64,000 bases of DNA from Sacculina carcini (taxonomy: Eukaryota; Arthropoda; Thecostraca; Sacculinidae): assembly GCA_916048095.2 (NCBI GenBank), contig OU696571.1:8258501-8322500 (forward strand). The letters run 5' to 3'. Made by a program: the position numbers and the translations under genes. Below the pieces are notes generated by a model. It ran no database searches, had not been told where the DNA came from, and saw only the letters and a program-made list of their open reading frames with translations. Positions 3,190 to 64,000 of the stretch are shown here, piece after piece. Each line of letters opens with the position of its first letter. The first letter of the stretch is position 1.

Positions 3190-3810
3190 TGTAATGGAAA
3201 TCGGACGTGGCGGTAGCGATGAGTCGATCAGTGAACGGAGGCGGGGCTTCATATCTTGTGTTTGTGTATCGTTGCATGTGTGAGTGTGTATGTTTGTGTG
3301 CGTGTGAGTGCGCAGGCGTCAGCGACGTAAGCAGCGCGCTGTGATCTGATTGGTGGATTCGAAGTTCTGTAAACGAACGGCCGTTAACGGCGGGCGATTT
3401 GAATATGTGGCCTGCACTGTGAATGCGGGGCAGTGGGTTGTGAGAGAGTGTGCGGTTCGGTGGCCCTGCAGTGCACTGTGTTGGATGAGCTTTTCCTTGG
3501 TGTTGCGGTGCACAGTGATAAGTGCATATTTATTTTGTGTTGCGGTGTACAGTGATAAGTGTATGGTTATTTTGTGCTGCGGTGCGCAGTGATAAGTGTG
3601 GTCTGCTTGTGCTACGGTATATTGTGTTTGGCGCCGTCTTGGACTGCTTCGTCGGCTCACTGAAAGTCAGTGCGGATTCAGCTGTGATCATTCGTCTATT
3701 TAATATTGTGATTAACCAAGTGTCATTATACGTTACATTGTTCGATCGTCTTTGCGGTCTGGGCATCGAGGTGATAGAATGGCTTTCAGCGACGCGAACA
3801 TGGAACCAAA
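3190..3810 (+). repeat. E1 5' LTR
   Basis: Starts TGTAATGGAAATCGGA and ends ...GGAACCAAA, exactly where identity with the 3' LTR stops and the PBS-like AACTATTTCGGC begins. It lacks a canonical CA end. The last 32 bp contain the gag start codon. Confidence 0.88.
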
Positions 3811-4568
3811 AACTATTTCGGCAGCATATGAAACGTCGTTCGATTTGAGGCTGGTGCCGGAGTATGACGGGAAACATGACCCCACGGAATGGCTAGAAAA
3901 AGTGCGGAAAATGTGTCGACTTCGCGGTGTACATGATGTAGCGCAGGTAGTGGGTATGCGAATCACTGACGATGCAAATGCCGTCGTTGATTGCCTCTCT
4001 GATGAGGACCAGTTGGACATCAGCAAAGTGGAGCAGGCACTTCAGACTGCGTTCGGCATGGACACTTTTGGTGCGTATGACGCGTTTGTGAAACGAATAT
4101 TAACTGAAGGTGAATGTGTCGATGTGATGATCTCTGATCTATGCAGACTGGGAGCCAGATGCAACATCACTGACCCAGTGTCCATCAAGTGTGCGTTTAT
4201 ATCAGCCATTCCTCTATCAGTGCGACACGTGCTCAGGGCTAATGTGAAGTTGGACTCCATGACAGTATCGGATGTTGTCAGCAGAACTAGAGTGATATTG
4301 TCAGAAACGGGTCAAAATATTGATACTGGACTATCTGCTTCTGCTCCTGAGCCTGGCCCACCGGCACGGCTGTCTTCAGGAAAAATGTTGTCAGGTGCTC
4401 TCAGGTGTTTTCTGTGTAACCGATCAGGGCATTTTGCACGCGGATGCCCCCGTCGAATGAATCGGGCTTGAGGCGAAGAAAGGAATGGTGTCAAATGTTT
4501 CAAGTGTGGCACGTTCGGACACGTCAGCCCAAATTGTCCGGGAAACGACCAAGGAGGAGAGGCATAGG
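3779..4568 (+). CDS. gag: E1 gag (capsid/nucleocapsid) with an in-frame TGA
   Basis: Structural protein that would package element RNA. The first ATG of the frame is 3,779 (MAFSDANMEPK); a second is at 3,800. Both lie inside the 5' LTR, so the first ten residues are LTR-encoded and the next codons run through the primer-binding region. The body (VPEYDGKHDPTEWLEKV) resembles the E2 and E3 gag (EYDGTGDIVEWW). The first CCHC knuckle is CFLCNRSGHFARGC; then comes TGA at 4,469-4,471; then the same frame gives CFKCGTFGHVSPNC and ends at TAG 4,566-4,568. E3 has both knuckles without a stop between them, so the TGA (GCT TGA GGC) probably arose from CGA. The slippery heptamer at 4,540 lies after the TGA, so pol expression would need readthrough here. 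Confidence 0.8.
3811..3822 (+). promoter_or_regulatory. E1 putative primer-binding site, complementary to a tRNA-Phe 5' end
   Basis: AACTATTTCGGC follows the LTR directly. The reverse complement of nucleotides 1-12 of eukaryotic tRNA-Phe(GAA), recalled as GCCGAAATAGCT, is AGCTATTTCGGC: 11 of 12 match. A normal TGG-starting PBS is absent at this position. Here the site is also gag coding sequence. Confidence 0.5.
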
Positions 4569-7500
4569 TGCCAGTCTCTTCTCCTCGAACGTAACGGCGC
4601 CGCTGGTTACGACAACTGTGATGGTCAATGGTGTTCAATGTCTTGCGCTCGTCGATACGGGCTGTTCCAGAAGCTTGATTTCTGAGTTCCTGTGTAGAGA
4701 GCGAGTGGAATCTCGCGGTGAGTGGCTGGTGATGATTAGCGGAGATCGTATGAGATGCCAAGGTAGCTGCGCAGTTACGGTTACCATGAACAATAGAAAG
4801 GCATTTGAGCTCAACGTATTTGTGGTGAAACATAGACCAGCCGGTTTTGACTTTGTTCTTGGTATTGATGGCATTGTATCTATGGGTGGCATGGTGTTGG
4901 ATTCGGAGAGAAATTTGACATGTGGTGTTGAGAAAAATGGCTGCGTTCATCTGGAATCGGGAGTAGCAGCAGCAGCAAGTGGAAACAGTATAACAAGTAG
5001 TTATGAGCTTGAAGGCAAAGATTTCCTGGCTACATTCGATGCAGAGAAAAGGTCATGGAGAGTGAGATGGAAGTGGTCGCAGCGTCCGGGTGTCTTGGAG
5101 AATCGAACCGCCGAGTACGCAATAGCGCCGCATGCCCGTAACGAGTATCAGGCAGAGTTAAAATCATGGATTGACGCTGGATGGCTTGTTGAGTACAACG
5201 AACAAACCCACGGATCAGTCAAAGGGCTGATTCCGCTTATGGCAGTCAGTCAGAAGAATAAGTGCAAAGTCAGGCCGGTGATGGATTTTCGCCAACTTAA
5301 TCGGTTTGTTGAAACTCACACGGTGGATGTCGACGTCTGTCACCAGAAAGTGAGAGATTGGAGGAGGCGGGGGGATCGCATAGCATTGTTGGACCTGACG
5401 CGCGCCTACCTTCAGATTGAAATTGAGCCTGCGCTCTGGTGTTACCAGACGGTGTTGATATCCGACAAGCGGTATTGCTTGACTCGACTGGGTTTCGGCT
5501 TAAGTGCAGCTCCGATCATCATGAAGGAGATTGTCAACTTCGTGTGTCGGCAAGATGCTGAGGTCGAGAGAGCCACTTCATCATACATTGATGATATTTT
5601 GGTGGACGAGTCGGTGTTGAGCGCGGAAAGAGTCAGCGAACACTTCTCGAGATACGGGCTGACCTGCAAACCTGCGGAACGGGCCGACCCATCATGTCGT
5701 GTGCTAGGTCTGAGTGTTTCGCGCCAGGCAGACGGATTGGTGTGGAGAAGAGACAATCCTGTGGCGGAAATTGTTGAGCCAATAACTCGACGGTCAGTTT
5801 TCTCGTGGTGTGGCCGGTTAGTCGCACATTTGCCGGTGGCTGGGTGGCTGAGGCCTGCCACCTCCTGGATAAAGCGATGCGTCAACTCTGTGACAAAAGG
5901 ATGGGACGATGTTGTGGAGGATCCATCCGTGAAGAATAAGATTTTGTTTGTGATCGACAAACTTGCTAATGAGGATCCAGCACGGGGAGTGTGGCGAGTG
6001 ACCGAAGATGAGGCAACCGTGTGGACTGATGCCAGTTCGATTGCTGGGGGAGTTGTGTTGGAGACTCAGGATTCAGGAGTAATCGAAGACGCGTGTTGGC
6101 TCCGCCGAGATGACACTACCCATATCAATATGGCCGAGCTGGACGCCGCGATCAAAGGCATTAACATGGCGGTCTCGTGGGGCATGAAGTCAATCAATCT
6201 CTGCACAGATTCTGCCACGGTTCATCGGTGGGTTGATGATGCTTTGAGTGGCCGTGCTAGGCTTCGAACGAAAGCGCACGGTGAACTCCTGATCCGTAGC
6301 AGAGTGAATATCATCAGACAGATGGTCGATGAACTTGATATTCAGATCAAGGTGCGACTTGTTCGGTCCGCGGAAAACTTGGCAGATGTCCTCACGCGTG
6401 TGCCGAAAAATTGGATTGGTGGCGAACCACTGGCCGTCGGTGCGGCAGCAACAACTTCAACAGCTCGCAGCTCAGTCGCTGAGCAAATTGCTAGCATTCA
6501 TGCACGAGCGGGGCATACAGGAATTCGTCGGACCTTGTACTTTGCTAGACGCGATCTCGCTAAACCGGTCAAGCGATCGCAAGTGCGCCAGGTGGCTCAT
6601 GGTTGTGACATATGTAATTCGATTGACCCAGCTCCGGTAAAATGGCGTCACGGTACACTCAGTGTTGCCCACGTGTGGCATCGCTTGGCAATTGACATCA
6701 GCCACTACAAGAACCAGCCGTACTTGACGGTTATTGATTGCGGTCCTTCACGGTTTAGCCTGTGGAGGCAACTACGAGCAGCGGACAGTGAGCAAGTGAT
6801 TCAGCACTTGGAGCGAATTTTCCTTGAAAGAGGAGCCCCAGTTGAGCTGCTCTGTGACAATGATACTGTGTTCAGAGGTCGGTCATTCGCAGCGCTAGCA
6901 GCGAGATGGAACATTAGATTGCGCTTCAGAGCAGCGTACGCTGCCAGTGGTAATGCGATCATCGAACGCAACCACAAGACCGTAAAAGTCATCGCAGCAC
7001 GAAAATCATGCGGTATCGCTGAGGCTGTACATCTCTACAACTCTACTCCTCGCGATGGAGAAAATGAGAATTCTGCGCCGGCCAATGGCGTCTACCGCTA
7101 CAGGATACGCGACTGCACGAGACCTAGAACAAATCAGTTTGGCCAGGAGTCGTCTGGTGGTAAACGCGCAAGGTTCGCTGTTGGTGAGGCAGTATGGGTT
7201 CGCCAGCGTGGAAGCAGATGCACCAACCGATCAGCGCAGGGAGTCGTGAGTGGCGTCGTTTCAGAGCAAGTGGTGGAGGTTGATGGTGTGCCGCGTCACG
7301 TCCGAGACCTCCGACGAAGAGTCCAGAACGGTGTAGGCGACGATCAATCAGGTGACACAAGATCATCCGACGAACCTCCTCTCTGGATTGGTCATCCAGA
7401 GTCTCATCCCAGGTCGGGTTCTGTTGTGTCAGAACCAGCTTCGTCATCAGCGCAAGAGCGGACTGATACAGCCGGGGCGTTTGATGATGCAAGCCCTGCA

Positions 7501-7629
7501 ATTGATGGCGTTGATCGACAAGAGCCTATTGTTACACCGACAGACAGACTACGTCGGGGGGAGCGGTTACGGCGACCGCCTCGTCGGTATTTTTCATGTT
7601 GTGATCTTGAAGATCAAGGAGGGGTGTAA
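4444..7629 (+). CDS. pol: E1 pol: protease, reverse transcriptase, RNase H, integrase
   Basis: Uninterrupted open frame of 1,061 codons, in the -1 frame of gag; translation probably enters at 4,546, so the first residues are unlikely to be natural. In order: aspartic protease LVDTGCSRS; RT with VMDFRQLNRF, LLDLTRAYLQIE, CLTRLGFGL and catalytic YIDDILV; connection SWCGRLVAHLPVAGWLRP; RNase H VWTDASS, HINMAELDA, CTDSATVH (D-E-D); integrase HHCC zinc finger (HARAGHTG, CDIC) and DDE core with D in AIDIS, D in CDNDTVF and E in IIERNHK, the last two 35 residues apart. No chromodomain is seen. All catalytic residues are present. The stop lies just inside the 3' LTR. Confidence 0.93.
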   Translation: MPPSNESGLRRRKEWCQMFQVWHVRTRQPKLSGKRPRRRGIGASLFSSNVTAPLVTTTVMVNGVQCLALVDTGCSRSLISEFLCRERVESRGEWLVMISGDRMRCQGSCAVTVTMNNRKAFELNVFVVKHRPAGFDFVLGIDGIVSMGGMVLDSERNLTCGVEKNGCVHLESGVAAAASGNSITSSYELEGKDFLATFDAEKRSWRVRWKWSQRPGVLENRTAEYAIAPHARNEYQAELKSWIDAGWLVEYNEQTHGSVKGLIPLMAVSQKNKCKVRPVMDFRQLNRFVETHTVDVDVCHQKVRDWRRRGDRIALLDLTRAYLQIEIEPALWCYQTVLISDKRYCLTRLGFGLSAAPIIMKEIVNFVCRQDAEVERATSSYIDDILVDESVLSAERVSEHFSRYGLTCKPAERADPSCRVLGLSVSRQADGLVWRRDNPVAEIVEPITRRSVFSWCGRLVAHLPVAGWLRPATSWIKRCVNSVTKGWDDVVEDPSVKNKILFVIDKLANEDPARGVWRVTEDEATVWTDASSIAGGVVLETQDSGVIEDACWLRRDDTTHINMAELDAAIKGINMAVSWGMKSINLCTDSATVHRWVDDALSGRARLRTKAHGELLIRSRVNIIRQMVDELDIQIKVRLVRSAENLADVLTRVPKNWIGGEPLAVGAAATTSTARSSVAEQIASIHARAGHTGIRRTLYFARRDLAKPVKRSQVRQVAHGCDICNSIDPAPVKWRHGTLSVAHVWHRLAIDISHYKNQPYLTVIDCGPSRFSLWRQLRAADSEQVIQHLERIFLERGAPVELLCDNDTVFRGRSFAALAARWNIRLRFRAAYAASGNAIIERNHKTVKVIAARKSCGIAEAVHLYNSTPRDGENENSAPANGVYRYRIRDCTRPRTNQFGQESSGGKRARFAVGEAVWVRQRGSRCTNRSAQGVVSGVVSEQVVEVDGVPRHVRDLRRRVQNGVGDDQSGDTRSSDEPPLWIGHPESHPRSGSVVSEPASSSAQERTDTAGAFDDASPAIDGVDRQEPIVTPTDRLRRGERLRRPPRRYFSCCDLEDQGGV
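4540..4546 (+). promoter_or_regulatory. -1 frameshift slippery site G GGA AAC (gag to pol)
   Basis: In the gag frame the codons are CCG GGA AAC, the X XXY YYZ pattern of a -1 programmed frameshift. Pol lies in the -1 frame and would be entered at 4,546. E2 and E3 have the same heptamer in the same register just after the last zinc knuckle. I did not identify a downstream pseudoknot. Confidence 0.65.
7612..7624 (+). promoter_or_regulatory. E1 polypurine tract
   Basis: GAAGATCAAGGAGGGG directly precedes the 3' LTR start TGTAATGG. E2 and E3 have AATCAGGAGG and AATCAGGGGG in the same place. It would prime plus-strand DNA synthesis. Confidence 0.7.
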
Positions 7630-8244
7630 TGGAAATCGGACGTGACGGTAGCGATGAGTCGATCAGTGAACGGAGGCGGGGCTTATATCTTGTGTTTGTG
7701 TATCGTTGCATGTGTGAGTGTGTATGTTTGTGTGCGTGTGAGTGCGCAGGCGTCAGCGACGTAAGCAGCGCGCTGTGATCTGATTGGTGGATTCGAAGTT
7801 CTGTAAACGAACGGCCGTTAACGGCGGGCGATTCGAATATGTGGCCTGCACTGTGAATGCGGGGCAGTGGGTTGTGAGAGAGTTTGCGGTTCGGTGGCCC
7901 TGCAGTGCACTGTGTTGGATGAGCTTTTCCTTGGTGTTGCGGTGCACAGTGATAAGTGCATATTTATTTTGTGTTGCGGTGTACAGTGATAAGTGTATGG
8001 TTATTTTGTGCTGCGGTGCGCAGTGATAAGTGTGGTCTGCTTGTGCTACGGTATATTGTGTTTGGCGCCGTCTTGGTCTGCTTCGTCGGCTCACTGAAAG
8101 TCAGTGCGGATTCAGCTGTGATCATTCGTCTATTTAATATTGTGATTAACCAAGTGTCATTATACGTTAAATTGTTCGATCGTCTTTGCGGTCTGGGTAT
8201 CGAGGTGATAGAATGGCTTTCAGCGACGCGAACATGGAACCAAA
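7625..8244 (+). repeat. E1 3' LTR
   Basis: About 99% identical by eye to 3,190-3,810, including the gag start region at its end (ATGGCTTTCAGCGACGCG). It contains the pol stop codon in its first bases. Confidence 0.88.
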
Positions 8245-12060: not shown

Positions 12061-12874
12061 GTTGTGATCCCTATGGGTCTGGCGAACGACACAATGGGGG
12101 ACGACAACACAATATACTTACAAGAGATCACTACATTCACAGTCTGGTTAATTACAGTGGCGGAATCAAAACACAAGAAATGGACTGAAACCTGCGAACA
12201 ACGATATCGGTACAGTGATGCACAACAAGATGGATGATCGCACGAATGGGCGAACGCAAACGCGAGCAGCAGGGTAAGCAGCAGGGCGAGACAACAGCTG
12301 GGTGGACTCTGTTGTCTGTCTGCCAGGGAAGAGTGTGTGTGACGGCGTTATATACAGCGCTGTGTGTGGTTGGGAATGTGTGTGTATGTGCGTATGTCAT
12401 CGCCGGTGGTGTTCTGGGACACATATGGTCTAGGCACACGGATGTCGACCAGATGTTGCCCTCGATGGCTGCTTCGTTCCTGGGTGAAGTTGAGGCCAGG
12501 TGGAGTGGGTGCGCGCTGCCTGGCGTTTGGATTGGTGCGCGCTAACAGGTGTTTTGGCTTGGTGTATGTCCGTGTGCAGAGGACATTCACCTCAGGGACG
12601 CGTATCGCTGAAGCACTGGTGGGGTGTGTGTTTGTGGTGTATGGGCAAATGTTGTTCCCCTACATTTGCGCAGACGCCACAGGAGTGTATCATATCAAGC
12701 TGCACGTTGCCTGAAAATTTGTACGTGTGTGTGTGTATGTGAGGCAGCATATGTACTAGTGCGTATGTGTGTATAGTAATAGTAATAGTAATGTATTGCC
12801 ACAGCAAGCACAATAAAAGTAATAGTAATGTATTGCCACAGCAAGCACAATAAAAGTAATATTAATAAAGCGCA
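12061..12874. other. Non-coding stretch, possible decayed LTR; 37-bp duplication near its end
   Basis: No gene recognised. The start may be the E4 5' LTR. TGTATGGGCAAATGTTGTTCC near 12,638 resembles the sequence after the E4 polypurine tract but in the opposite orientation. At about 12,785-12,858 a 37-bp unit (ATGTATTGCCACAGCAAGC...) is duplicated. E2 inserted right after it. Confidence 0.5.
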
Positions 12875-13235
12875 TGTTGTGTGCAGCCCGGGTTTGTGGA
12901 CCTGAGCGCGCGCGTGTGCGCGTTTGCGGTTGTTTCAAGGTGATGGTAGTGTTACCGACGCGAGGACAAAGCGAGTAGGTGTGCGTGCGGGTGTATTTTT
13001 GGGAGTGCCGCTTGAAGCGTTGTTGCGCGTGTTGGTCGTGCTGCCATAGCGAGTGTTGACTTCGTGCGTTGAGTATTGAGGAGACGCGGTGTGAGATATG
13101 TTGTAGTTTCTCACTGAGTGCATTGTGATACATATTTGTGCATTGTGATACTAGTGTGTGTTCTGTGTTATGGTGTGTGTGCTTGCGTGCTTGTGCGAGT
13201 ACACGAACATTTTTTCCTTTGCATTTGACCTTACA
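12875..13235 (+). repeat. E2 5' LTR
   Basis: TGTTGTGTGCAG...GACCTTACA, with canonical TG/CA ends, preceded by GCGCA. Confidence 0.92.
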
Positions 13236-13247
13236 AGCTATTTCGGC
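13236..13247 (+). promoter_or_regulatory. E2 putative primer-binding site, perfect complement of tRNA-Phe nucleotides 1-12
   Basis: AGCTATTTCGGC starts at the first base after the LTR. It equals the reverse complement of the 5' end of tRNA-Phe as recalled, 12 of 12. The match ends at the LTR boundary; the next LTR bases (ACA) do not continue it. Confidence 0.55.
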
Positions 13248-16769: not shown

Positions 16770-17154
16770 TGTTGTGTGCAGCCCGGGTTTGTGGACCTGA
16801 GCGCGCGCGTGCACGCGTTTGCGGTTGTGCCAAAGTCATGGTGGCGGTCATGGTCAAGGTCATGGTAGTGTTACCGACGCGAGGACAAAGCGAATAGGTG
16901 GGCGTGCGGGTGTATTTTTGGGAGTGCCGCTTGGGACGCTGTTGCGCGTGTTGGTCGTGCTGTCACAGCGAGTGTTGACTTCGTGCGTTGAGTATTGAGG
17001 AGACGTGGTGTGAGATATGTTGTAGTTTCTCACTGAGTGCATTGTGATACATATTTGTGCATTGTGATATTAGTGTGTGTTCTGTGTTCTGGTTTGTGTG
17101 CTTGTGTGTTTGTGCGAGTACACGAACATTTTAACCTTTGCATTTGACCTAACA
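16770..17154 (+). repeat. E2 3' LTR
   Basis: TGTTGTGTGCAG...GACCTAACA followed by GCGCA. The 24-bp insertion relative to the 5' LTR looks like local duplication of TCATGGT-type words. Confidence 0.92.
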
Positions 17155-17159
17155 GCGCA

Positions 17160-18709: not shown

Positions 18710-19438
18710 TGAATTTCGATATTTCTTCTGGGGAGCTCCAGTCAAATCAATTTTCGAGGGAAACAAATTGTGTCTATCGTCGGTAAAAGCAAGAATGACA
18801 CCAAAGACCTAGTGAGGAAGAGGGGCAGTAAACGTCGGTCTATCTCTCTCAAGCTGAAGAAGCTCTAGGAGGCTCAGGATGAGGATTGTCCCAATGTTCA
18901 CTTCATTGTGGGGCAATTATTAGAAGTGGATAAGTTTTTTCCGGACATTCAATCTATAGATGAGGAATTGATCCAAGTGTGTGAGAACAACTCGATATAT
19001 GCTGTCAGTGAGTCCTTTTTGGAAAAACATGAGGAGGAAAATGGGACCTATATATTATCAATTAAGCCAGAAATTGGAATGTTGAGGAGGAAGCTTGTCA
19101 CTGCGTCAGACAGAACCAAGTCGATCCGTGTAGAGGGGACAGCTCCTACCAGGACTCACGTCAATGGGCCCCACATTGATTGCAGTACCTTCGATGGCTC
19201 ACAAGATTTTGAGTCGTATTTTTCGATATTTGACAATGTAGTTGGGGATCGCAATGATTTGTCTGAGTCGATCAAACTGACCTACTTGAAATCGTATTTG
19301 AGGGGACACGCCGCAAAAGTGGTTCAACATCTATCCATTCAGAATCAAAACTACACCGTGGCTCGTGAATTGCTAAAAAATGAATTCTATGACGAAAATT
19401 TAATTAAGGGCAACTTGTTTGAAAAGTTTTTGACTATG
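18710..19438 (+). pseudogene. BEL/Pao gag, first part (split by E3)
   Basis: Starts near ATG 18,710 (MNFDISSGELQ), with early stops, then a long open stretch from 18,908. Core motif CSTFDGSQDFESYFSIFDN, then LTYLKSYLRGHAAKVVQ and YTVARELLKNEF, matching the BEL/Pao gag pattern (F.G...eW..F...F; K..YL...L.G.A...i.....Y..a...L...F). It stops at CTATG, where E3 inserted; it resumes at 28,125. Confidence 0.75.
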
Positions 19439-19808
19439 TGTATTATGTTTATTGTATATTGCATTGTATTATATTTTATACTATATATAATTGTGTGTGC
19501 GTGCATATGTATTTGTGTGCGTAAGTGGGAGTTTGATTTTGTGTACGTTGTTGTATGCGCGCGCGGAGGTAGCTGCGTCACACAAGCGCGAGCGATGAGT
19601 GCATGCATGCGCGGGTGGTATCCGCCCGGACTCAACGGTCGCTCGTGCATGTTGGGCAGTGCGTTACTGGTTAAGTGAGAGTGTGGTGTGTGTGTGGTGG
19701 TTTAGTGTTGTTCGGTGGAGAGAGTAGTATTTAGTGCATTGTGTTGCGGTGTGATCGTGTGGAATTGTGCTTTCTTGTTCTTTTTTTTCGTGCTTACATT
19801 CAAATACA
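19439..19808 (+). repeat. E3 5' LTR
   Basis: TGTATTATGTTTATTG...TTCAAATACA, with TG/CA ends. It contains purine/pyrimidine-alternating words (GCGCGCGCGG, TGCATGCATGCGCG). Confidence 0.92.
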
Positions 19809-19820
19809 AGCTGACCGGCC
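19809..19820 (+). promoter_or_regulatory. E3 putative primer-binding site, complement of tRNA-Ile 5' end
   Basis: AGCTGACCGGCC starts at the first base after the LTR. The reverse complement of tRNA-Ile(AAU) nucleotides 1-12, recalled as GGCCGGTTAGCT, is AGCTAACCGGCC; the single difference is a G that can wobble-pair with U8. So the complement is complete if wobble is allowed, with a different tRNA from E1 and E2. Confidence 0.5.
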
Positions 19821-23403: not shown

Positions 23404-23426
23404 TGATTCTTAGAATCAGGGGGATA

Positions 23427-23632
23427 TGTATTATGTTTATTGTATATTGCATTGTATTATATTTTGTACTATATATAATTGTGTGTGCGTGCATATGTAT
23501 TTGTGTGCGTACATGGGGTGTGATTTTGTGTACGTTGTTGTATGCGCGCGCGGAGGTAGCTGCGTCACACAAGCGCGAGCGATGAGTGCATGCATGCGCG
23601 GGTGGTATCCGCCCGGAGTCAACGGTCGCTCG
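23427..23632 (+). repeat. E3 3' LTR, left part
   Basis: Follows the polypurine tract AGAATCAGGGGGATA. Matches the 5' LTR to ...AACGGTCGCTCG and is then interrupted by hAT-A. Confidence 0.92.
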
Positions 23633-24299
23633 CAGAGAATGAAGCACGGTACGGTACGATTGGTTTTTCGTGATTCGTACCAACGAAAAAATTTCGTACC
23701 GTACTTTCGTACCGTACCTCATTTTTGCAATCGTACCGTACTAGTACGAAAAAAATTTCGTACCGTAATTTTGTACCTTTTTCGTACCTTCAGCAATCGT
23801 TCTCACAGGACTTGAATCGATATTTGCTGTCCCCATATGTGGAATTCTATAATATACATTATCACACACTTGATATTATATTTTACTATAAATTTAATAC
23901 TAAATGAAATACGAAATGTATATGAAATACGTTTATTTAACTTCACATTATAAAAATAAAACGTTAAATGGGACCCTTCGACATCAAGTAAAATTACTTT
24001 ATCGGTATATTCACTTTATTGGTAAAATTACTGAAAGCCCTGGCGAATTCAGTGAGTTGGTTGTATATGCTTATGATAATATGGCGCGGCTGAAGCAAAT
24101 ACAAACACAATGATGAGGTTTCTGCGTCATGTTCATACAGTCATTATACGCGAGTAAAATATGAACTCTTTTAGATACCGGGTTCCATGGAAATAGTCAA
24201 TGAGTCAGCATGTCATTCGCCTATTATTTCTCACAGGCATGTACTTTCTCATACGGTTTTATTGTGTACCTCCCATCCGATTCCTGGAATTGTGCTCAA

Positions 24300-24470
24300 A
24301 CAAATGCAACTGTATGCAACTGTATGTAACTGCATGCAACTGTATGTAACTGCATGCAACTGTATGTAACTGCATGCAACTGTATGTAACTGCATGCAAC
24401 TGTATGTAACTGCATGCAACTGTATGTAACTGCATGCAACTGTATGTAACTGTATGTAACTGTATGCGGG
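24300..24470 (+). repeat. Minisatellite of 10/20-bp units (left block)
   Basis: Alternating CTGTATGTAA and CTGCATGCAA decamers, about 16 copies. The same repeat returns at 26,414, on the other side of a LINE tail. Confidence 0.9.
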
Positions 24471-24547
24471 GCAGATGTAGCAGAACCCCACGAAACGAAA
24501 GAACATTCGCTTGCGGAAAAAACGAAATACAGACTGAACAACACCTC

Positions 24548-24974
24548 TGTGGTGTGATCGTGTGCAGTGAGAGAGAGTGTGTGTGTGAAAGATTGTGTGT
24601 GCGTGAACGTGTTAGTGTGTCTATATGTGATCGTGTATGGTTGAATTGTATATTGCGTGCGAGAGTGTGTGAGCGAGTGTGTATAGCTGTGTCGGTGAGT
24701 GTGTGCAGTTGTTTCGGTGTGTGTGTGTATGTGTTTGTAGAGTATGCTTGTCCCGCGGCGGCGAGCAATTGACCGGCTCGCCGCTGCTTGGCTGTTGCGG
24801 CGGGTGAGGACTGTGTGCGCGTATGTGTGTCCGTGTGTGCTCCCGTGTGACACGGTGTGAGCGTAGAGTCCTGTTTGAGCTGCGGTTGTGGCGTGACGTC
24901 TTGTAGGCGCGCGTGGGGCAGTGATGCCCGCGCGCGTCTGTCTCTAATATATTTTAGTCTTTTTGTTTTCTACA
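24548..24974 (+). repeat. Mini-LTR 5' LTR
   Basis: TGTGGTGTGATCGTG...TTTTCTACA. Confidence 0.93.
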
Positions 24975-24986
24975 AGCTATTTCCGC
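24975..24986 (+). promoter_or_regulatory. Mini-LTR putative primer-binding site, tRNA-Phe 5'-end type
   Basis: AGCTATTTCCGC follows the LTR directly; 11 of 12 match the complement of tRNA-Phe nucleotides 1-12 (AGCTATTTCGGC). Confidence 0.5.
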
Positions 24987-25665
24987 CTTTTTGTTTTGGA
25001 ATTATTTTTGTCTGCGACCCGGCTTCAGCAGCGGAGATGGTGCCTTCCAGCATCAGTAGCGGCCTACCAGCGGAGAACAGCGGCTGAGGTGCTCGGCGGC
25101 GTGTCAGGTTGGTGTGCAGGGGGACGGCAGTGCAGGATGATGCCGGCGGGAGGCAGCTGAGGAGCTGTGGCCGAGGGATGCTGGTCGTCTCGCCTGCACT
25201 GGTGTTAGACTCGTCGCCGGGCAGATAGAAGATCGCTGGTGGAGGCTGCTGGTGCTGGAGGGCATGTGAGTGAAAGGAGCTGCTGAAGCCGGAGGAGAAA
25301 TGATGAACGCCGACGACGGTGCGGCTTGCGTGTGCGGCGGAGTCACGGCTGTCTGCGACGGGGTGCTGAATAGCACGGGTGTCGGCGGGAGCACGGTGGG
25401 TGCTGGGGCCGAGGTGCTGTGCCCTGTCGCGGCAGCCGGTGATGAAGAAGACGGCAGGCTGCGGCGAAGCACTGAAGAGCACGGGCGAGGCGGGAGCGTG
25501 GTGGATGCTGGGGCCTGACGTGTTGTGCTTCGCCGCAGCCACGGTGTGTGCATCTGGTGGAGGCCGTCGTCGAGTTAGGTTTTTTATTGGTTCCTGGTTT
25601 GCTTGATCGCGTTTTTTAATTGTCTGTTCTTTTGTTGATTTATGTTTCTTTAAAACAGGTGGAGG

Positions 25666-26092
25666 TGTGGTGTGATCGCGTGCAGTGAGAGAGAGTGGGT
25701 GTGTGAAAGTTTGTGTGTGCGTGAACGTGTTAGTGTGTCTATATGTGATCGTGTATGGTTGAATTGTATATTGCGTGCGAGAGTGTGTGAGCGAGTGTGT
25801 ATAGCTGTGTCGGTGAGTGTGTGCAGTTGTTTCGGTGTGTGTGTGTATGTGTTTGTAGAGTATGCTTGTCCCGCGGCGGCGAGCGATTGACCGGCTCGCC
25901 GCTGATTGGCTGTTGCGGCGGGTGAGGACTGTGTGCGCTCATGTGTGTCCGTGTGTGCTCCCGTGTGACACGGTGTGAGCGTAGAGTCCTGTTTGAGCTG
26001 CGGTTGTGGCGTGACGTCTTGTAGGCGCGCGTGGGGCAGTGATGCCCGCGCGCGTCTGTCTCTAACATATTTTAGTCTTTTTGTTTTCTACA
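25666..26092 (+). repeat. Mini-LTR 3' LTR
   Basis: Same length as the 5' copy; followed by ACCTC. Confidence 0.93.
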
Positions 26093-26413
26093 ACCTCTTG
26101 ATACGTTGTGAACATACAGCCGAATACAGAAAGGAATATAAAAACAGATTAGACTTTGAAAGTATTGCAAATCTGCTTGAAAATTGTACCAGATATGAAG
26201 TGTTATGCGAATATATATTTAAGTGCCTAAATTTGATAAGGGAGGTAGAAATTTAAATGTGTTATTTTGTTACCGTGTTATGGTATTGTTATGTGATTTC
26301 TTCTTTTTTTGTTGATGTTATACATGTTATACGATTCTTGATATGCTATACTCGAACTCGAGCCATATGTATTATTGTTGGACCTTGTGTCAATAAACTA
26401 CTAATACTACTAT

Positions 26414-26557
26414 GTAACTGTATGCAACTGTATGTAACTGTATGTAACTGTATGTAACTGTATGCAACTGTATGTAACTGTATGTAACTGAATGCAACTG
26501 TATGTAACTGTATGTAACTGTATGTAACTGTATGTAACTGTATGCAACTGTATGTAT
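26414..26557 (+). repeat. Minisatellite of decamers (right block)
   Basis: CTGTATGTAA/CTGTATGCAA units, about 14 copies; same family as 24,300-24,470. Confidence 0.9.
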
Positions 26558-26740
26558 GCATACTTTTCATTGACGTAATTTCATTGGCGTCTTTTCATTG
26601 TTGTAATTGAAGGGTGATAAAATGGTAAAGGATTCCATGCAATTGGCCAACTGAGCAAGCCTTGAACACTAATGAATGATAGGTGTCTTGCCCCGAGTCT
26701 CGAGTTAAAGTCGAGGTCTCGAGTTAAAGTCGATTTAAAC

Positions 26741-27767
26741 CAGGGTTTGAAAAAAACCGGATTTTTTTCAAAAACAACAAAAACCATGTTTTTTTAGAAA
26801 AAAACAAAAAAACATTGTTTTTATGTTTATTTGGTTTTTTTACACTTTGCACACACAAATCAAAAAAAGGATTGTACCATGCTATTTAGTACATAGTTAA
26901 ACATATATTAGTACCACTTACCATGGGTTTTGTAAATATTTAAAAAAGATAAAAATAATATCATAAAAATGTACACACAGGATCTTGAATTTCACCTTGT
27001 AGCATCTATAGGCAACGGAAGTTTTAAACCGCTTCCAAGTGCGAAAGCAGTCGATTGTAAACACCCACATATGTTTGCAAAGTCCAATCCATATACCCAG
27101 TGGTCATATTTATGAAAATCTAGTGACTAAAAATCGTTTTTTCCATGGAGGTTAATTCATGTTTGTTTTCAGAGTAAACACAGTTTATATTAACTCAGAG
27201 GTTTTTGAAAATAGTGTTTTTAATGGAAATTCAATTGTTTTGTCGTAAATATTTAGGATTTCTCATAAATACCAACTACAATGTTTCCCCAGCAAAAACC
27301 AAAAATGTTAATAAAAATGTTTCCCATATCGTGCAAACCCCTAAAATCATGCCAAAAAGTACTATTTATGAAGATTTAATACTGTATTAATGAACTCATT
27401 TACTATTTCTGAAAATAGTTGATCATTCCTATATTAGAAAAATCATTTCTGTCAAAAAAAACAATTTAAAAAAACATGTTTTTTTTATAAAAATACACTT
27501 GGTTTAAACCAAACAAACCCTGGTATAAGCCAAACAAACCCTGCATAAAATCATGTCAAAAAGTAATATTTATGAAGATTTAAAACTGCATTAATTAACT
27601 CTTTTACTAATTCTAAAAATATTTTATCATTCCTATATGAGAAAATTCATTTTCTGTCAAAAAAACAATATTGAAAAAAACCATGTTTTTTTATAAAAAA
27701 AACACTTGTTTTAAACCATGGTTTAAACCATGGCTTAAACCAAATGGTTTAAACCAAACAAACCCTG
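26741..27767 (+). mobile_element. hAT-B: 1.0-kb hAT MITE
   Basis: Ends CAGGGTTTG...CAAACCCTG; 8-bp target duplication ATTTAAAC at 26,733-26,740 and 27,768-27,775. AT-rich interior with GGTTTAAACC-like words and no transposase. The terminal motif CAAACCCTG also occurs internally near 27,516 and 27,535. Confidence 0.85.
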
Positions 27768-27957
27768 ATTTAAACCCATTATCTTTAGTACCAAAAAGGT
27801 ACGGTAAGGTACGAATATTTTTTCGTACTTTCGTACCGTACCGTACTTCGGAAAAAATTTCGTACCGTAATTTCGCACCGTACTTTTGCCCGAAATTCAA
27901 TCGTACCGTACTGTAATTTCGTACCGTACCGTACCGTACCCATACTCTGGTCGCTCG

Positions 27958-28124
27958 TGCATGTTGGGCAGTGCGTTACTGGTGAAGAGAGAGTGTGGTG
28001 TGTGTGCGGTGGTATAGTGTTGTTCGGTGGAGAGAGTAGTATTTAGTGCATTGTGTTGCGGTGTGATCGTGTGGAATTGTGCTTTCTTGTTCTTTTTTAT
28101 TCTTCGTGCTTACATTCAAATACA
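27958..28124 (+). repeat. E3 3' LTR, right part
   Basis: Resumes with TGCATGTTGGGCAGTGCG and ends TTCAAATACA|CTATG, matching the end of the 5' LTR. Confidence 0.92.
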
Positions 28125-29490
28125 CTATGTCAGTGGGGAAAAAGCAGGACTCATTCGTGAATGTGAAGAAATTCGTGTGTGATATCAAGGGCGTGTTGCA
28201 CGAATTCCAGTGTCATGATGTCGACTTGTTGCGTTCCAACACTGGGGGCTATCATTTGGTGAGTCATTGCCATCATCAGTCATCTGGTGTTCGAGCGATT
28301 GCCGTCGTGTGTTCAGAGTGAGTTGACTCACAGGTTGAGCTCAAATTGCCCCACCCTTATGAAATTGTCCATAACTGCAGTGGATGTTTAAAGACACTGT
28401 CGCGGGTGAATTCAAATACGTGTTCTGCTGGTGTTGTACAACGACAGCCCAGCGTTCGACCGGCCTTGCAGAGTTTTCATATTAGCAGGCCCGAGCCAGT
28501 GAACATACGGAGGCCGTGCAAACTCTGTAACCAACTGTCTCACTGGATGCAGAACTGTCCGAAGTACGTCTCGGTGAAGCGAAAATTTGATCGCTGTGAG
28601 TAGTTGGGTTTTTCTTCATTTTGCAGCAGCAATCGCCACATTTCAACTGAATGACAGGCCTACAAAAGTACGGTGAAATTATCATATTCATGTAAATCAT
28701 GCGGACTGTACACGCATATCACACCTTTTTGTCGCAGTCTCAGTGAGCAGGAAAGAAGTCGACTTGTGACGTCGAATTGGTGTATGGCCAGCCGACATGA
28801 GTCATCTTCATCGGAAAGCTTGTTTCTTCTACCGTCTTTGACATTAGGCGTCGGCATTGGTGCGAAAAAAACGGAGGTTCGTGTCCTGATAGGCAGCGGT
28901 AGCCAACGCTCGTACATTTCAACATCGGTTAAGAATCGCATGAATCTTGTCGCAGCGCGTCATCGAAGTCGTCTTATCAGCTGCGCACCTTCAATTCTTC
29001 AACATCGGTGGAACTCATCGAGCCTGTCGTCGACATTAATTTCAAATCGTCTTTGTTGAAGGTGCCAGTTTTGTTACACGAGGATCTTTGCACCAAATTT
29101 TCAGTTCATGAACTGCGAGCGGCTATTGCCAACATCTCCAGGCAAGGCTTTTCTCTTGCAGACGAATCGTTTTTGTCGCAAAATTCGAACTGTATTCTGT
29201 TGGAGGGTATTTTTGAAGTGGACATTCTGCAATACTTAAATTTGGAAACTGTCCCACTCATGAAAGATTCAGCATTGCATATTGCAGCTGAGGTTCCCTT
29301 CGGAAACGTGGAACATTATCTGGATGAATCGCAGTTCTTGGGTGCTTCTATACAAAAAAGTTGTTTGCTTGTCCCGATTCGATTCAACACAGTCACATGT
29401 AGTATCCACTCTAGTGAAAAATATGATGCCACCTGGCACGTCGTATTTTGATCCCCTTTCGGCTACTCTACATGATTCGTTTGTGGAGGC
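28125..29490 (+). pseudogene. BEL/Pao gag end and protease region (continues 18,710-19,438)
   Basis: After CTATG the frame resumes as MSVGKKQDSF. Zinc-knuckle-like CKLCNQLSHWMQNC and CKSCGLYTHITPFC follow, then a protease-like VRVLIGSGSQRSYIS, where BEL proteins typically have DSGSQ, so the catalytic Asp is replaced by Gly. The next open part (LIEPVVDINFKSSLL...) has frameshifts and ends near 29,450. No RT, integrase or 3' LTR follows: the element is truncated where a LINE fragment begins. Confidence 0.7.
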
Positions 29491-60604: not shown

Positions 60605-62213
60605 CTAGCATTAAAACCCGCTCGTTGTACGGAGCAATTCATAACATGAAGTTAATATTCAATTCATAAGAAATATGGAAAATATAAAATGAAATAGGGT
60701 ACACACATATAAATATTTATCAATTGAAAATTCTAAATTTAATTATTTTTATTTCGACAAAATATTTCCCCTCAGTCCGCCTTAGTAATTTTCACACCCG
60801 CCCGTCGTGCTGAATAATTCAGAACTCGAACACGATCCGTTCTGGATCTTGAAGTCAAATCCATTGATTTTGTGTATGGATTAATTTTACAGGGAAAATT
60901 GAACGTTCTATTGTCTATAGTTGCTGCCCGCGGAGCATTTTAATTTAAAAAAACCTTTTCAAATGAACCATTTGAAAAAATGAACTAAAAAATGAAAACA
61001 CTTTTTTTTAAACCCACCGTCGTGCGGAACAATTCCTACAATAAAAATTCATATTAAATCTATAAAATATAATGAATACAAATTTAAAAAAAATGTAACC
61101 TATAAATATCTTAACCAAAAGAAAAGTCAAAATGTGAATATTTTTGTTTTTGTTTTGACAAATATTATCCCTCAACCCTCCTGATATATAAATATGCCCG
61201 TCGTGTGGTATAATTCAGAACACAAACACGAAACAAACAATGAATGATGATGAAATCTTTTCATCAGAATGTTTCTAAACTATATTTATTACTTAACATC
61301 ATTCCCCAACATCATTTGCTTAAGTACTATTTTACTTTTACCGCTATAATATTTATTGCTAAAATTTATATATGTGCCGCTATCATTAAAACCCAATATA
61401 ACCTGAGTCAAACCTAACCAACCCAACCCAACCATTCAATCTTGACCGCACTCAGCCTAGTCTGAGGTGATTGAACTTATTAGTTTGTGATCACAAAATA
61501 TAATGATTGGATCATAATTTGTAATCAGAAGACTGAGATTATCTACCCCAGGGATCCCAAAAACGCGGCCCACCAATACTTTTCTCTCAACCCGCCAGTA
61601 TAGTATCGGAACCAGACTGTAAGGCAGCTAAATTCACATTTGTTGCAAAATGCGATATATTTGTACACCATTTAAGTCACATTTACATTAGTGAGTCTGG
61701 ATCTTGAAGTCAAGCCCGTGAGTTTTGTATATGGATTCATTCCACACGGTAAAATTGAATGTTTGAACCCACCCGTCGTGCGGAACAATTGATAAAACAA
61801 AAGAAATACATATTTAAATGCAAACAGCCAGTCTAATAGAAAACTCTGAATTGTAAAATCTATACCAATAGAAAATTCCTGTTCTGAATTTGCATACTCT
61901 TATTCTAATAATTGACGACATATTATTCAGTCAACCCGCCTCATACTTAAGCCCGCCCGTCGTCAGGAACAATTTTGAAATGTAAACACAAAATAACAAT
62001 GATTTTTTTAGTATATAAATCAATTTTTTCCATAATATTATCTCATAATTCCCGGTTAATGCTTCCACTAATGCATCATATTAATACAGTTGTTATTTTT
62101 TGGATTACACCGATATAACAGCTCTTGATATTACAGCCGATATTATATTATGCAATCTATATTCTGCTCCGTATTATTCCTAATACATATATCATCAGAT
62201 CGCAAAATATATT
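60605..62213 (-). repeat. R3 copy of the R family, cut by E3b
   Basis: Reverse complement of 41,400-42,770. The 3' end on the minus strand is GCGGGTTTTAATGCTAG, as in R1b. GC boxes near 60,797, 61,012, 61,196, 61,772 and 61,952. Non-coding. E3b inserted at ATATATT|TGTATTTG. Confidence 0.78.
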
Positions 62214-62589
62214 TGTATTTGAATGTAAGCACGAAAAATAAAAAAGAACAAGAAAGCACAATTCCACACGATCACACCGCAACACAATGCACTAAATACT
62301 ACTCTCTCCACCGAACAACACTCTAAACCACTGCACAAACACCACACTCTCACTTCACCAGTAACGCACTGCCCAACATGCACGAGCGACCGTTGACTCC
62401 GGGCGGATACCACCCGCGCATGCATGCACTCATAGCTCGCGCTTATGCAACGCAGCTACCTCCGCGCGCGCATACAACAACGTACACAAAATCACACTCC
62501 CACGTACGCACACAAATACACATGCACGCACACACAATTATATATAGTACAAAATCCAATACCACGCAATACACAATAAACACAATACA
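62214..62589 (-). repeat. E3b 3' LTR
   Basis: On the minus strand TGTATTGTGTTTATTG...ATTCAAATACA; about 90% like the E3 LTRs by eye. Confidence 0.9.
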
Positions 62590-62612
62590 TATCCCCCTGA
62601 TTCTAAGAATCA

Positions 62613-64000
62613 CTATGCCTGACTAGAATTATACACAACATAATCATTGAACCGCGCCGGACGCTGACTCTGTCGCTGTGGTCGCGTCTGCTGCTGACCA
62701 CTACTCGCCGGACCAGTCCCGGCAGTCCTCTCACCGTACACCATGACGGCAGGCTCGCCGTCGTCCGCCACGTCACCGCTCGCCTCGACCAATGAGTTCG
62801 TACAGCCACCGTTCTCCGTCTCCGCCCGTGGTCTGACATCACCCACGTGCCTGTTGATGCCATCGACGGCGACAACGAGGTCTGACACGACACTTGTGAC
62901 GGTACCCCTGCGAACGACAGCATCACACCGATCTCCGCGCTGCCTCACCCAGACAGGATCGCCAGCCTCATAATCGCAGCCACGAACAGATGTGCTGCGC
63001 TGTCGCGGGAGTTAATCACGCATTCGCACTCTGTATCGATACACACAATCAACAGGTCTGCGACCGGCGTCATCGCTTGGCGTCAAATTGTGCAGCATCA
63101 CAGCCTCTCTCACACTGCACTGTTTCCTCGCAACAATGGTCTTCACTGTCCGATGCGACCTCTCCGCTATGCCGTTTCCTTCTGGGCGAAAAGCACACCG
63201 ATATCGAATGTTCACACCCCAACGTTCCATCGCCCGCACAAAAACCTGTCCACGAAAAGATGTGTCGTTGTCCAGAAGTATCTCATTTGGGGATCCACGC
63301 TCACTAAAAATGTCATCGAAAATGTCCGCCACTTCATCGCTGCTGCGAGTGCGAACCTTGCGCCAGAGAGAAAACCTCGAATGACCACAATCGATGACAG
63401 ACACATACAACAAATCACGCACATGCACAAAATCTGCTGCCAGTCGGTGCCAGTTTTGATTCACGCTCAGATTTCCGTGTCTCCATTTCACTGAGGCCGG
63501 ACAAATCGAATTGCAGATGTCACACGACCTCACAACATCTGCGACTTCCCGCTTGCTCACGTAAAGCTTTTTCCTCCGGCAAAAGTACCGCGTTCGGTGG
63601 ATGCCCGGATGTCCGGCGTCGTGGTGAATCTGCCGGATGCGAGAACGCACGTCAGTCGGTTCAGCACCTGCGGCACACACTGATTTGTCCTGTTTCAACC
63701 AGTGACCAGGCACACGAGTCAGGCAATCTGCTATATTCCTCTCAGACGCCACCTTCATTACTTCAACAGTCAAGTTGTACTCGTCCAACAATCCACCAAT
63801 GATCTCTAGTCGGCGCCTGATCAACAACTCACTACAGGCAGCTGTCCTGACACGTTCTTTTGCCGTTAGGAGTCCTCTGAGCCATAAATGCACCGTGGAC
63901 GAATCTGTGAAAACCCGAATTTTTCGAAATTTGAGCTTGATCGCCAGGCCAAGCCCCTTTATCACGGCCTCTAGCTCACTGAGGTTTATGTGGTGGCTGT
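62613..64000 (-). pseudogene. E3b pol, RNase H to integrase C-terminus (partial)
   Basis: Enters at the right edge with SHHINLSELEAVIKG (RNase H), FTDSSTVHLWL, then integrase HHDAGHPGIHR and CDICNSIC (an intact HHCC finger, unlike E3), D in AADFVHV, D in LDNDTSF, E in IAERSHR. TAA at 63,012 follows MRD; the frame then continues to 62,613. E3 has Glu at this stop and its own stop 13 codons later. Confidence 0.88.

Follow-up and report, generated by a model that had tools for sequence, protein, structure and literature searches.

LTR retrotransposons of the window

The window, that is, the whole 64-kb stretch of Sacculina carcini DNA analysed here, contains four elements (E1, E2, E3 and a mini-LTR element) in which the first base past the 5' LTR is also the first base of a 12-mer, the border of E1 being approximate (Table 1). 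LTR borders were established by LTR-to-LTR alignment together with the target duplications (TSD), which are of 5 bp in E2, the mini-LTR element and E3. These three have LTRs of the TG..CA type with short target duplications and E1 has them approximately, its LTR ending in AAA and its duplication being imperfect (CAGGG/CATGG, 4 of 5 bases). The 12-mer is matched three times in the window (E1, E2 and the mini-LTR element) against 0.10 matches expected, and none of 100 shuffles gave three. The initial annotation had reported 12-mers in the four elements, with a match that stops at the LTR edge; all four lie where it had placed them, and the edge is fixed by target duplications in E2, the mini-LTR element and E3 and is approximate in E1. 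It had also described the primer-binding sites (PBS) of two further elements of the same window, E5 and E6, as conventional, and TGG-type sites were found in them at 5 and 2 bases past the LTR, respectively.

Table 1. Coordinates of the elements, their LTRs and their primer-binding sites (PBS) in the window.
Feature	Position	Strand	Remarks
E1 5' LTR, probable	3190..3810	+	Putative start; in-frame gag ATGs within LTR 3' end
E1 PBS AACTATTTCGGC	3811..3822	+	Private G-to-A change; AGCT in 5/6 other E1a copies
E1 Pol reading frame	4420..7629	+	RT, DUF7047 (PF23088), RNase H-like, integrase
E1 3' LTR	7625..8244	+	Putative start, as for 5' LTR
E2 5' LTR (TG..CA)	12875..13235	+	TSD GCGCA at 12870-12874
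E2 PBS AGCTATTTCGGC	13236..13247	+	Exact complement, human tRNA-Phe nt 1-12
E2 3' LTR	16770..17154	+	TSD GCGCA at 17155-17159
E3 5' LTR	19439..19808	+	TSD CTATG at 19434-19438 and 28125-28129
E3 PBS AGCTGACCGGCC	19809..19820	+	Complement of host tRNA-Ile(AAU) nt 1-12, one private change
E3 3' LTR, second piece	27949..28124	+	First piece ~23424-23632
Mini-LTR element 5' LTR	24548..24974	+	TSD ACCTC at 24543-24547
Mini-LTR element PBS AGCTATTTCCGC	24975..24986	+	One change vs Phe 12-mer
Mini-LTR element 3' LTR	25666..26092	+	TSD ACCTC at 26093-26097

A Pfam search of the E1 Pol located the domains RVT_1 (282-395), RVT_3 (541-607), H2C2 (690-734) and rve (757-840), RVT_3 scoring above the cut-off and the other three slightly below it. 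This order of reverse transcriptase (RT), RNase H and integrase, tested on E1, is that of Ty3/Gypsy-type LTR retrotransposons. The elements are LTR retrotransposons with the Ty3/Gypsy domain order, belonging to a clade with PF23088 (DUF7047). A search with the E1 Pol gave 489 relatives at E<=0.001; among the best 120 of these, the relatives with PF23088/DUF7047 include proteins from Amphibalanus (barnacle), Trichuris (whipworm), Trichinella, Petrolisthes (porcelain crab) and Macrobrachium (prawn), which are members of the same Pol family with 43-56% identity over the covered parts. The literature searched gave no primer class for these PF23088/DUF7047 relatives.

Besides, the 3' LTR of E3 is split by an insertion (23633-27948) that contains the mini-LTR element and repeats with a 10-bp period (~24224-24528 and 26352-26626). 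By eye, the end of the mini-LTR (24548-24974) resembles the LTR end of the L087 family, and the mini element may be a non-autonomous relative. A second E3-type element lies in reverse orientation at the end of the window (62213-64000).

The 12-mer in genomic copies

The assembly that holds the window comprises 264 Mb in 43 contigs. The RT segments of E1, E2 and E3, used as queries, gave at least 144, 146 and 144 scored matches, respectively, and the DNA upstream of 70 RT matches was inspected. Thirty of these loci came from the E1 search, and 40 were picked across the three lists so as to span families, with RT identity to the query down to about 50%; the DNA of these 40 was fetched blind to the site, by a constant offset 5' of the RT match. 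The 12-mer is exact in 61 of the 70 copies, as AGCTATTTCGGC (Phe type) in 54 and as AGCTAACCGGCC (Ile type) in seven, and 65 copies are exact or one base off. The four copies with one mismatch are the E1 of the window (L038), L089, L104 and L109. The initial annotation had held that its reading would fail if many copies were devoid of complementarity to a tRNA 5' end; only five of the 70 are without the site (L041, L077, L078, L110 and L084, the last of which shows a site bearing a deletion). When 46 further copies are added, taken from families already sampled, placed by the known offset and not independent of the 70, the site is exact in 106 of 116 and within one base in 110, and six copies are without it. 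At the level of sequence, the observation extends far past the window, to most of the sampled RT-selected genomic copies.

Related to the families, AGCTATTTCGGC is present in five of the six other E1a copies (the sixth being L041) and in all 23 copies of E1b, and AGCTAACCGGCC is found in 21 of the 22 other copies of the E3 985/998-aa families, L164 being without the site. These counts refine what had been annotated from single copies. The match of 11 in 12 positions to tRNA-Phe described for E1 and the mini-LTR element stands, the mismatch of E1 being private to the window copy; the use of other tRNAs by these two elements was discarded and both sites are read as single-base mutants, from one copy only in the case of the mini-LTR element. 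Similarly, the complementarity of E3 to tRNA-Ile is retained, and its G-U wobble is a mutation of one copy, because the other copies of the E3 families read AGCTAACCGGCC in the proportion given above. The 15-mer AGCTATTTCGGCTCA occurs at seven places of the genome, six of them preceded by an end of the ..ACA type and one (L005) not. In the copy L144 the first nine bases of the PBS are tandemly duplicated, perhaps by a slip during strand transfer.

On the LTR side the match ends at nt 12 of the tRNA, the usual LTR end ACA facing C13 and A14 unpaired. On the other side, the information content is 2.0 bits at +12 but 0.17 at +13 among 12 cluster representatives, the clustering being rough (one cluster took 69 loci of several families). 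In the 23 copies of E1b the 12-mer is invariant and +13, a third codon position, ranks first in variability among 3797 scored columns (C12 G9 A1 T1); +14 is variable too. In other families +13 reads C, C, A and G in four copies, just before ATG (1005-aa family, rank 1 of 30), G4 A3 in seven copies (1086-aa family, rank 1 of 27) and G18 A3 in 21 copies (983-aa family, rank 3 of 130). No variation at +13 occurs in the two E3 families (11 and 10 copies), and all six E1a copies that have the site read A there. Judged from these positions, the 12-mer block is defined by the tRNA at both its ends.

Complementary tRNA ends and candidate primers

The host genome carries ten identical tRNA-Ile(AAU) genes, which start with GGCCGGTTAGCT, and the ten places of GGCCGGTTAGCTCAG in this genome are these ten genes. 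The comparison with tRNAs of the species itself, proposed in the initial annotation as a check, is favourable in its Ile half: the E3-type site AGCTAACCGGCC complements the 5' end of host tRNA-Ile(AAU) in 12 of 12 positions. It had also been argued that the change of tRNA in E3, with complementarity kept, is at odds with mere shared ancestry. Only E3-type families show the change from Phe to Ile, which could go back to one event.

Nucleotides 1-12 of human tRNA-Phe (PMC11706605) are complementary to the Phe-type 12-mer without a mismatch, so the match of 12 in 12 positions claimed for E2 is exact against the human molecule. Host tRNA-Phe would be expected to begin with GCCGAAATAGCT, and five pattern searches plus a DNA search of the 264-Mb assembly did not find its gene. 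There were no matches in the assembly to GACTGAAGATCTAAAG, to GCCGAAATAGCTCAG or to a pattern from the D arm to the anticodon (up to two mismatches). A second D-arm pattern (up to three mismatches) gave six places with the letters ACTGTAG, which were taken for tRNA-Tyr and rejected as tRNA-Phe; ARAGORN reported an unnamed tRNA with anticodon gt or gtag at four of them and none at two. GCCGAAATAGCTNNR is present at 75 genome places, 51 of which end in TGA and would be the PBS following an LTR that ends in TCA; the one place with a TAG continuation gave no tRNA by ARAGORN. The frequency of GCCGAAATAGCTTGA (51 of the 75 places) suggests that one more family is abundant, with the same PBS and an LTR that ends in TCA. 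C9:1629933 (L182), considered as a tRNA context for GCCGAAATAGCT, was rejected, ARAGORN finding no tRNA there. The DNA search yielded two fragments only (L068 and L069, around base 1501) that match the 3' half of tRNA-Phe; they start at about nt 38, and the preceding 120 bases hold no 5' half. In a tRNA family search 63 of 15013 candidates were scored and 51 listed, and tRNA-Phe was absent among the 40 inspected of those 51. The missing gene is probably an assembly gap; the other tRNAs look metazoan. The identification of tRNA-Phe in the initial annotation is accordingly kept as exact against the human sequence; for the host the assignment is putative, its basis being that sequence and the conservation of the 12-mer in 54 of the 70 copies.

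The reading that we favour, with a probability of about 0.8, is that a cytosolic tRNA, cleaved within its D stem (U12|C13), supplies its 5'-terminal 12 nt as the primer of minus-strand DNA. The PBS would pair with the 5'-terminal 12 nt of tRNA-Phe in most sampled families and of tRNA-Ile(AAU) in the E3 group, and the primer oligonucleotide would be GCCGAAAUAGCU in the Phe families and GGCCGGUUAGCU in the E3 families. Since the primer is first extended by the base at the LTR edge, next to the PBS, the 3'-OH of the primer would be that of tRNA U12, and a 12-mer ending at this edge implies that the intact CCA end is not the primer at this site. The priming inference of the initial annotation admitted either a 12-nt 5' tRNA fragment or an otherwise opened tRNA; the fragment is supported, and the opened intact tRNA is less likely because the LTR edge sets the primer 3' end at nt 12.

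The cut inside the D stem could take place before or after annealing. By analogy with Tf1, the tRNA might be cut once annealed, where the 12-bp duplex ends, by the RNase H of the element RT; this enzyme is a tentative choice over RNase P and tRNase Z. For tRNA-Phe, the duplex energies (-18.7 plus -14.4 versus -23.6 kcal/mol) are compatible with the 5' strand leaving the acceptor stem of the tRNA and pairing with the PBS instead. A site of 12 nt is short, and this counts against the proposal. Plus-strand synthesis would copy the primer to its 5' end, run off and add stray bases, which is a likely cause of the hypervariable +13 in some families. As a general rule, non-templated addition at +13 is supported only in part, the position being invariant in the E3 families and in E1a.

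Among the alternatives, there is a small chance that the primer is another RNA of the host or encoded by the element, with the 3' end GCCGAAAUAGCU, so that the match to tRNA-Phe is incidental or ancestral. This would agree with the failure to find a host tRNA-Phe gene with this start in the assembly. However, the E3-type 12-mer, which differs in five bases, exactly complements the 5' end of host tRNA-Ile, and a single unrelated RNA would not account for both 12-mers. Neither the four window LTRs nor the DNA fetched from before the site in 65 copies contains a complement to the PBS: the best match is 7-8 of 12 in the LTRs of E1, E2, E3 and the mini-LTR element (shuffle means 7.5-7.9) and 6-9 of 12 in the 65 copies, where the fetched DNA is often part of an LTR only. 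Self-priming in the style of Tf1 was rejected on the same figures.

It is less likely still that the tRNA stays intact, its first 12 nt anchoring it to the genome and its CCA end priming at another place, in a rearranged bipartite site. Bipartite sites and contacts between tRNA and genome beyond the acceptor are described for Ty1 and Ty3 (PMC5371799), but priming elsewhere would not set the end of U5 exactly at the 12-mer. Any other complement to the tRNA in the four window elements is at most 7-9 nt long, within the shuffle range, and an extended or bipartite tRNA contact was discarded there, nothing exceeding the shuffle level.

The least probable of these alternatives, by a little, is that the 12-mer has no part in priming and is conserved as a cis-signal or as a Gag-coding motif. 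In its favour, the gag frame of E1a, E1b and the 983-aa family includes the 12-mer, which is translated there as AIS. Against it, the 12-mer of E2 is located upstream of the first gag ATG, the Ile variant encodes different peptides and the 12-mer sits exactly at the place required for a PBS. A gag ATG upstream of the PBS, with the frame running through the site, was observed in E1 (3716-4471), E1b (L045 89-871) and the 983-aa family (L081 562-999); it lies inside the LTR in the three, the LTR border being shown for E1 only.

The Gag relatives provide a further argument against a peptide motif. Gag relatives numbered 4 in one search and 305 in another, and the sample consisted of 122 (all 4 plus the best 120 of the 305). 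In 16 of them the frame extends upstream of the Gag Met via LQAIS (8), TSYFG (6) or KLFR (2), the peptides that the 17-mer TTACAAGCTATTTCGGC gives in its three frames, with Met 1-6 residues further on; the query profile included three of the eight LQAIS proteins. The remaining 106 are without these peptides and many start at or after Met. P0177 (TSYLG) and P0146 (TSYQG) may be one-change variants, and no Ile-type peptide was found in the 122. Nine permuted control peptides gave no match in the first 90 residues of the 122 proteins; of 120 Pol proteins none had any of the three true peptides, and two of the nine controls occurred once each. DNA of the relatives was not found in viral_contigs, genome_contigs or plasmids, the Gag evidence coming from protein sequences. 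The occurrence in three frames implies that nucleotides, and not a peptide, are conserved. As judged from sequence, the genomic copies and the Gag proteins show conservation of the site across families and in other genomes.

Two known primer types were rejected: priming by a tRNA 3' end, as the site has no TGG start, AGCT stands at the LTR edge and the tRNA-Ile 5' end is matched in 12 of 12 positions, and priming by a half tRNA, as the complement comprises nt 1-12 and ends in the D stem, not in the anticodon stem-loop.

Known primer systems

The choice of primer fixes where the replication of an LTR element starts and how the LTR ends are made. Three primer types are named in a survey of plant elements: the complete tRNA, the half tRNA produced by a cut in the anticodon stem, and the self primer (PMC6317226). 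The way of starting proposed here appears to be unlike these three published types. In the literature searched on primers and on the relatives of these elements, which subscription papers mostly lay outside, no title or abstract start described a 5'-end tRNA primer. It is probable that the elements represent a fourth primer class, in which the first 12 nt of a host tRNA, freed by a cut in the D stem at the PBS, act as primer in a large animal retrotransposon clade, with a switch between Phe and Ile and a run-off mark at +13 in some families.

If true, a 5'-terminal tRNA primer would be the fourth type and would connect Tf1-style cleavage with tRNA priming. Programs that look for a PBS with tRNA 3' ends only would label such elements as PBS-less. 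Besides, a 5'-tRNA primer is directly testable in cDNA and small-RNA data.

As in retroviruses and most LTR elements, the PBS lies directly past the 5' LTR and is complementary to a host tRNA; in contrast to them, it is without a TGG start and complements the opposite end of the tRNA. In copia and Ty5 a half tRNA is the primer, and host RNase P is named as the Ty5 cutter (PMC5371799). The likeness to that system is a primer that is a tRNA fragment with an internal 3' end, as proposed here, whereas the cut is made there in the anticodon stem-loop and would be made here in the D stem after nt 12, with pairing to nt 1. In Tf1 and Tj1 the 5' end of the element mRNA pairs with the PBS and is then cut free as primer, and Tf1 RNase H is reported, in the title of a work cited there, to cut the RNA duplex that frees it (PMC4600332). 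Both systems would share a short 5'-terminal piece of RNA that pairs with the PBS and is released by cutting, a step that is putative in the present elements. On the other hand, the piece is the 5' end of the element's own mRNA in Tf1 and Tj1 and would be that of a host tRNA here, where the upstream stretches are without a complement to the PBS.
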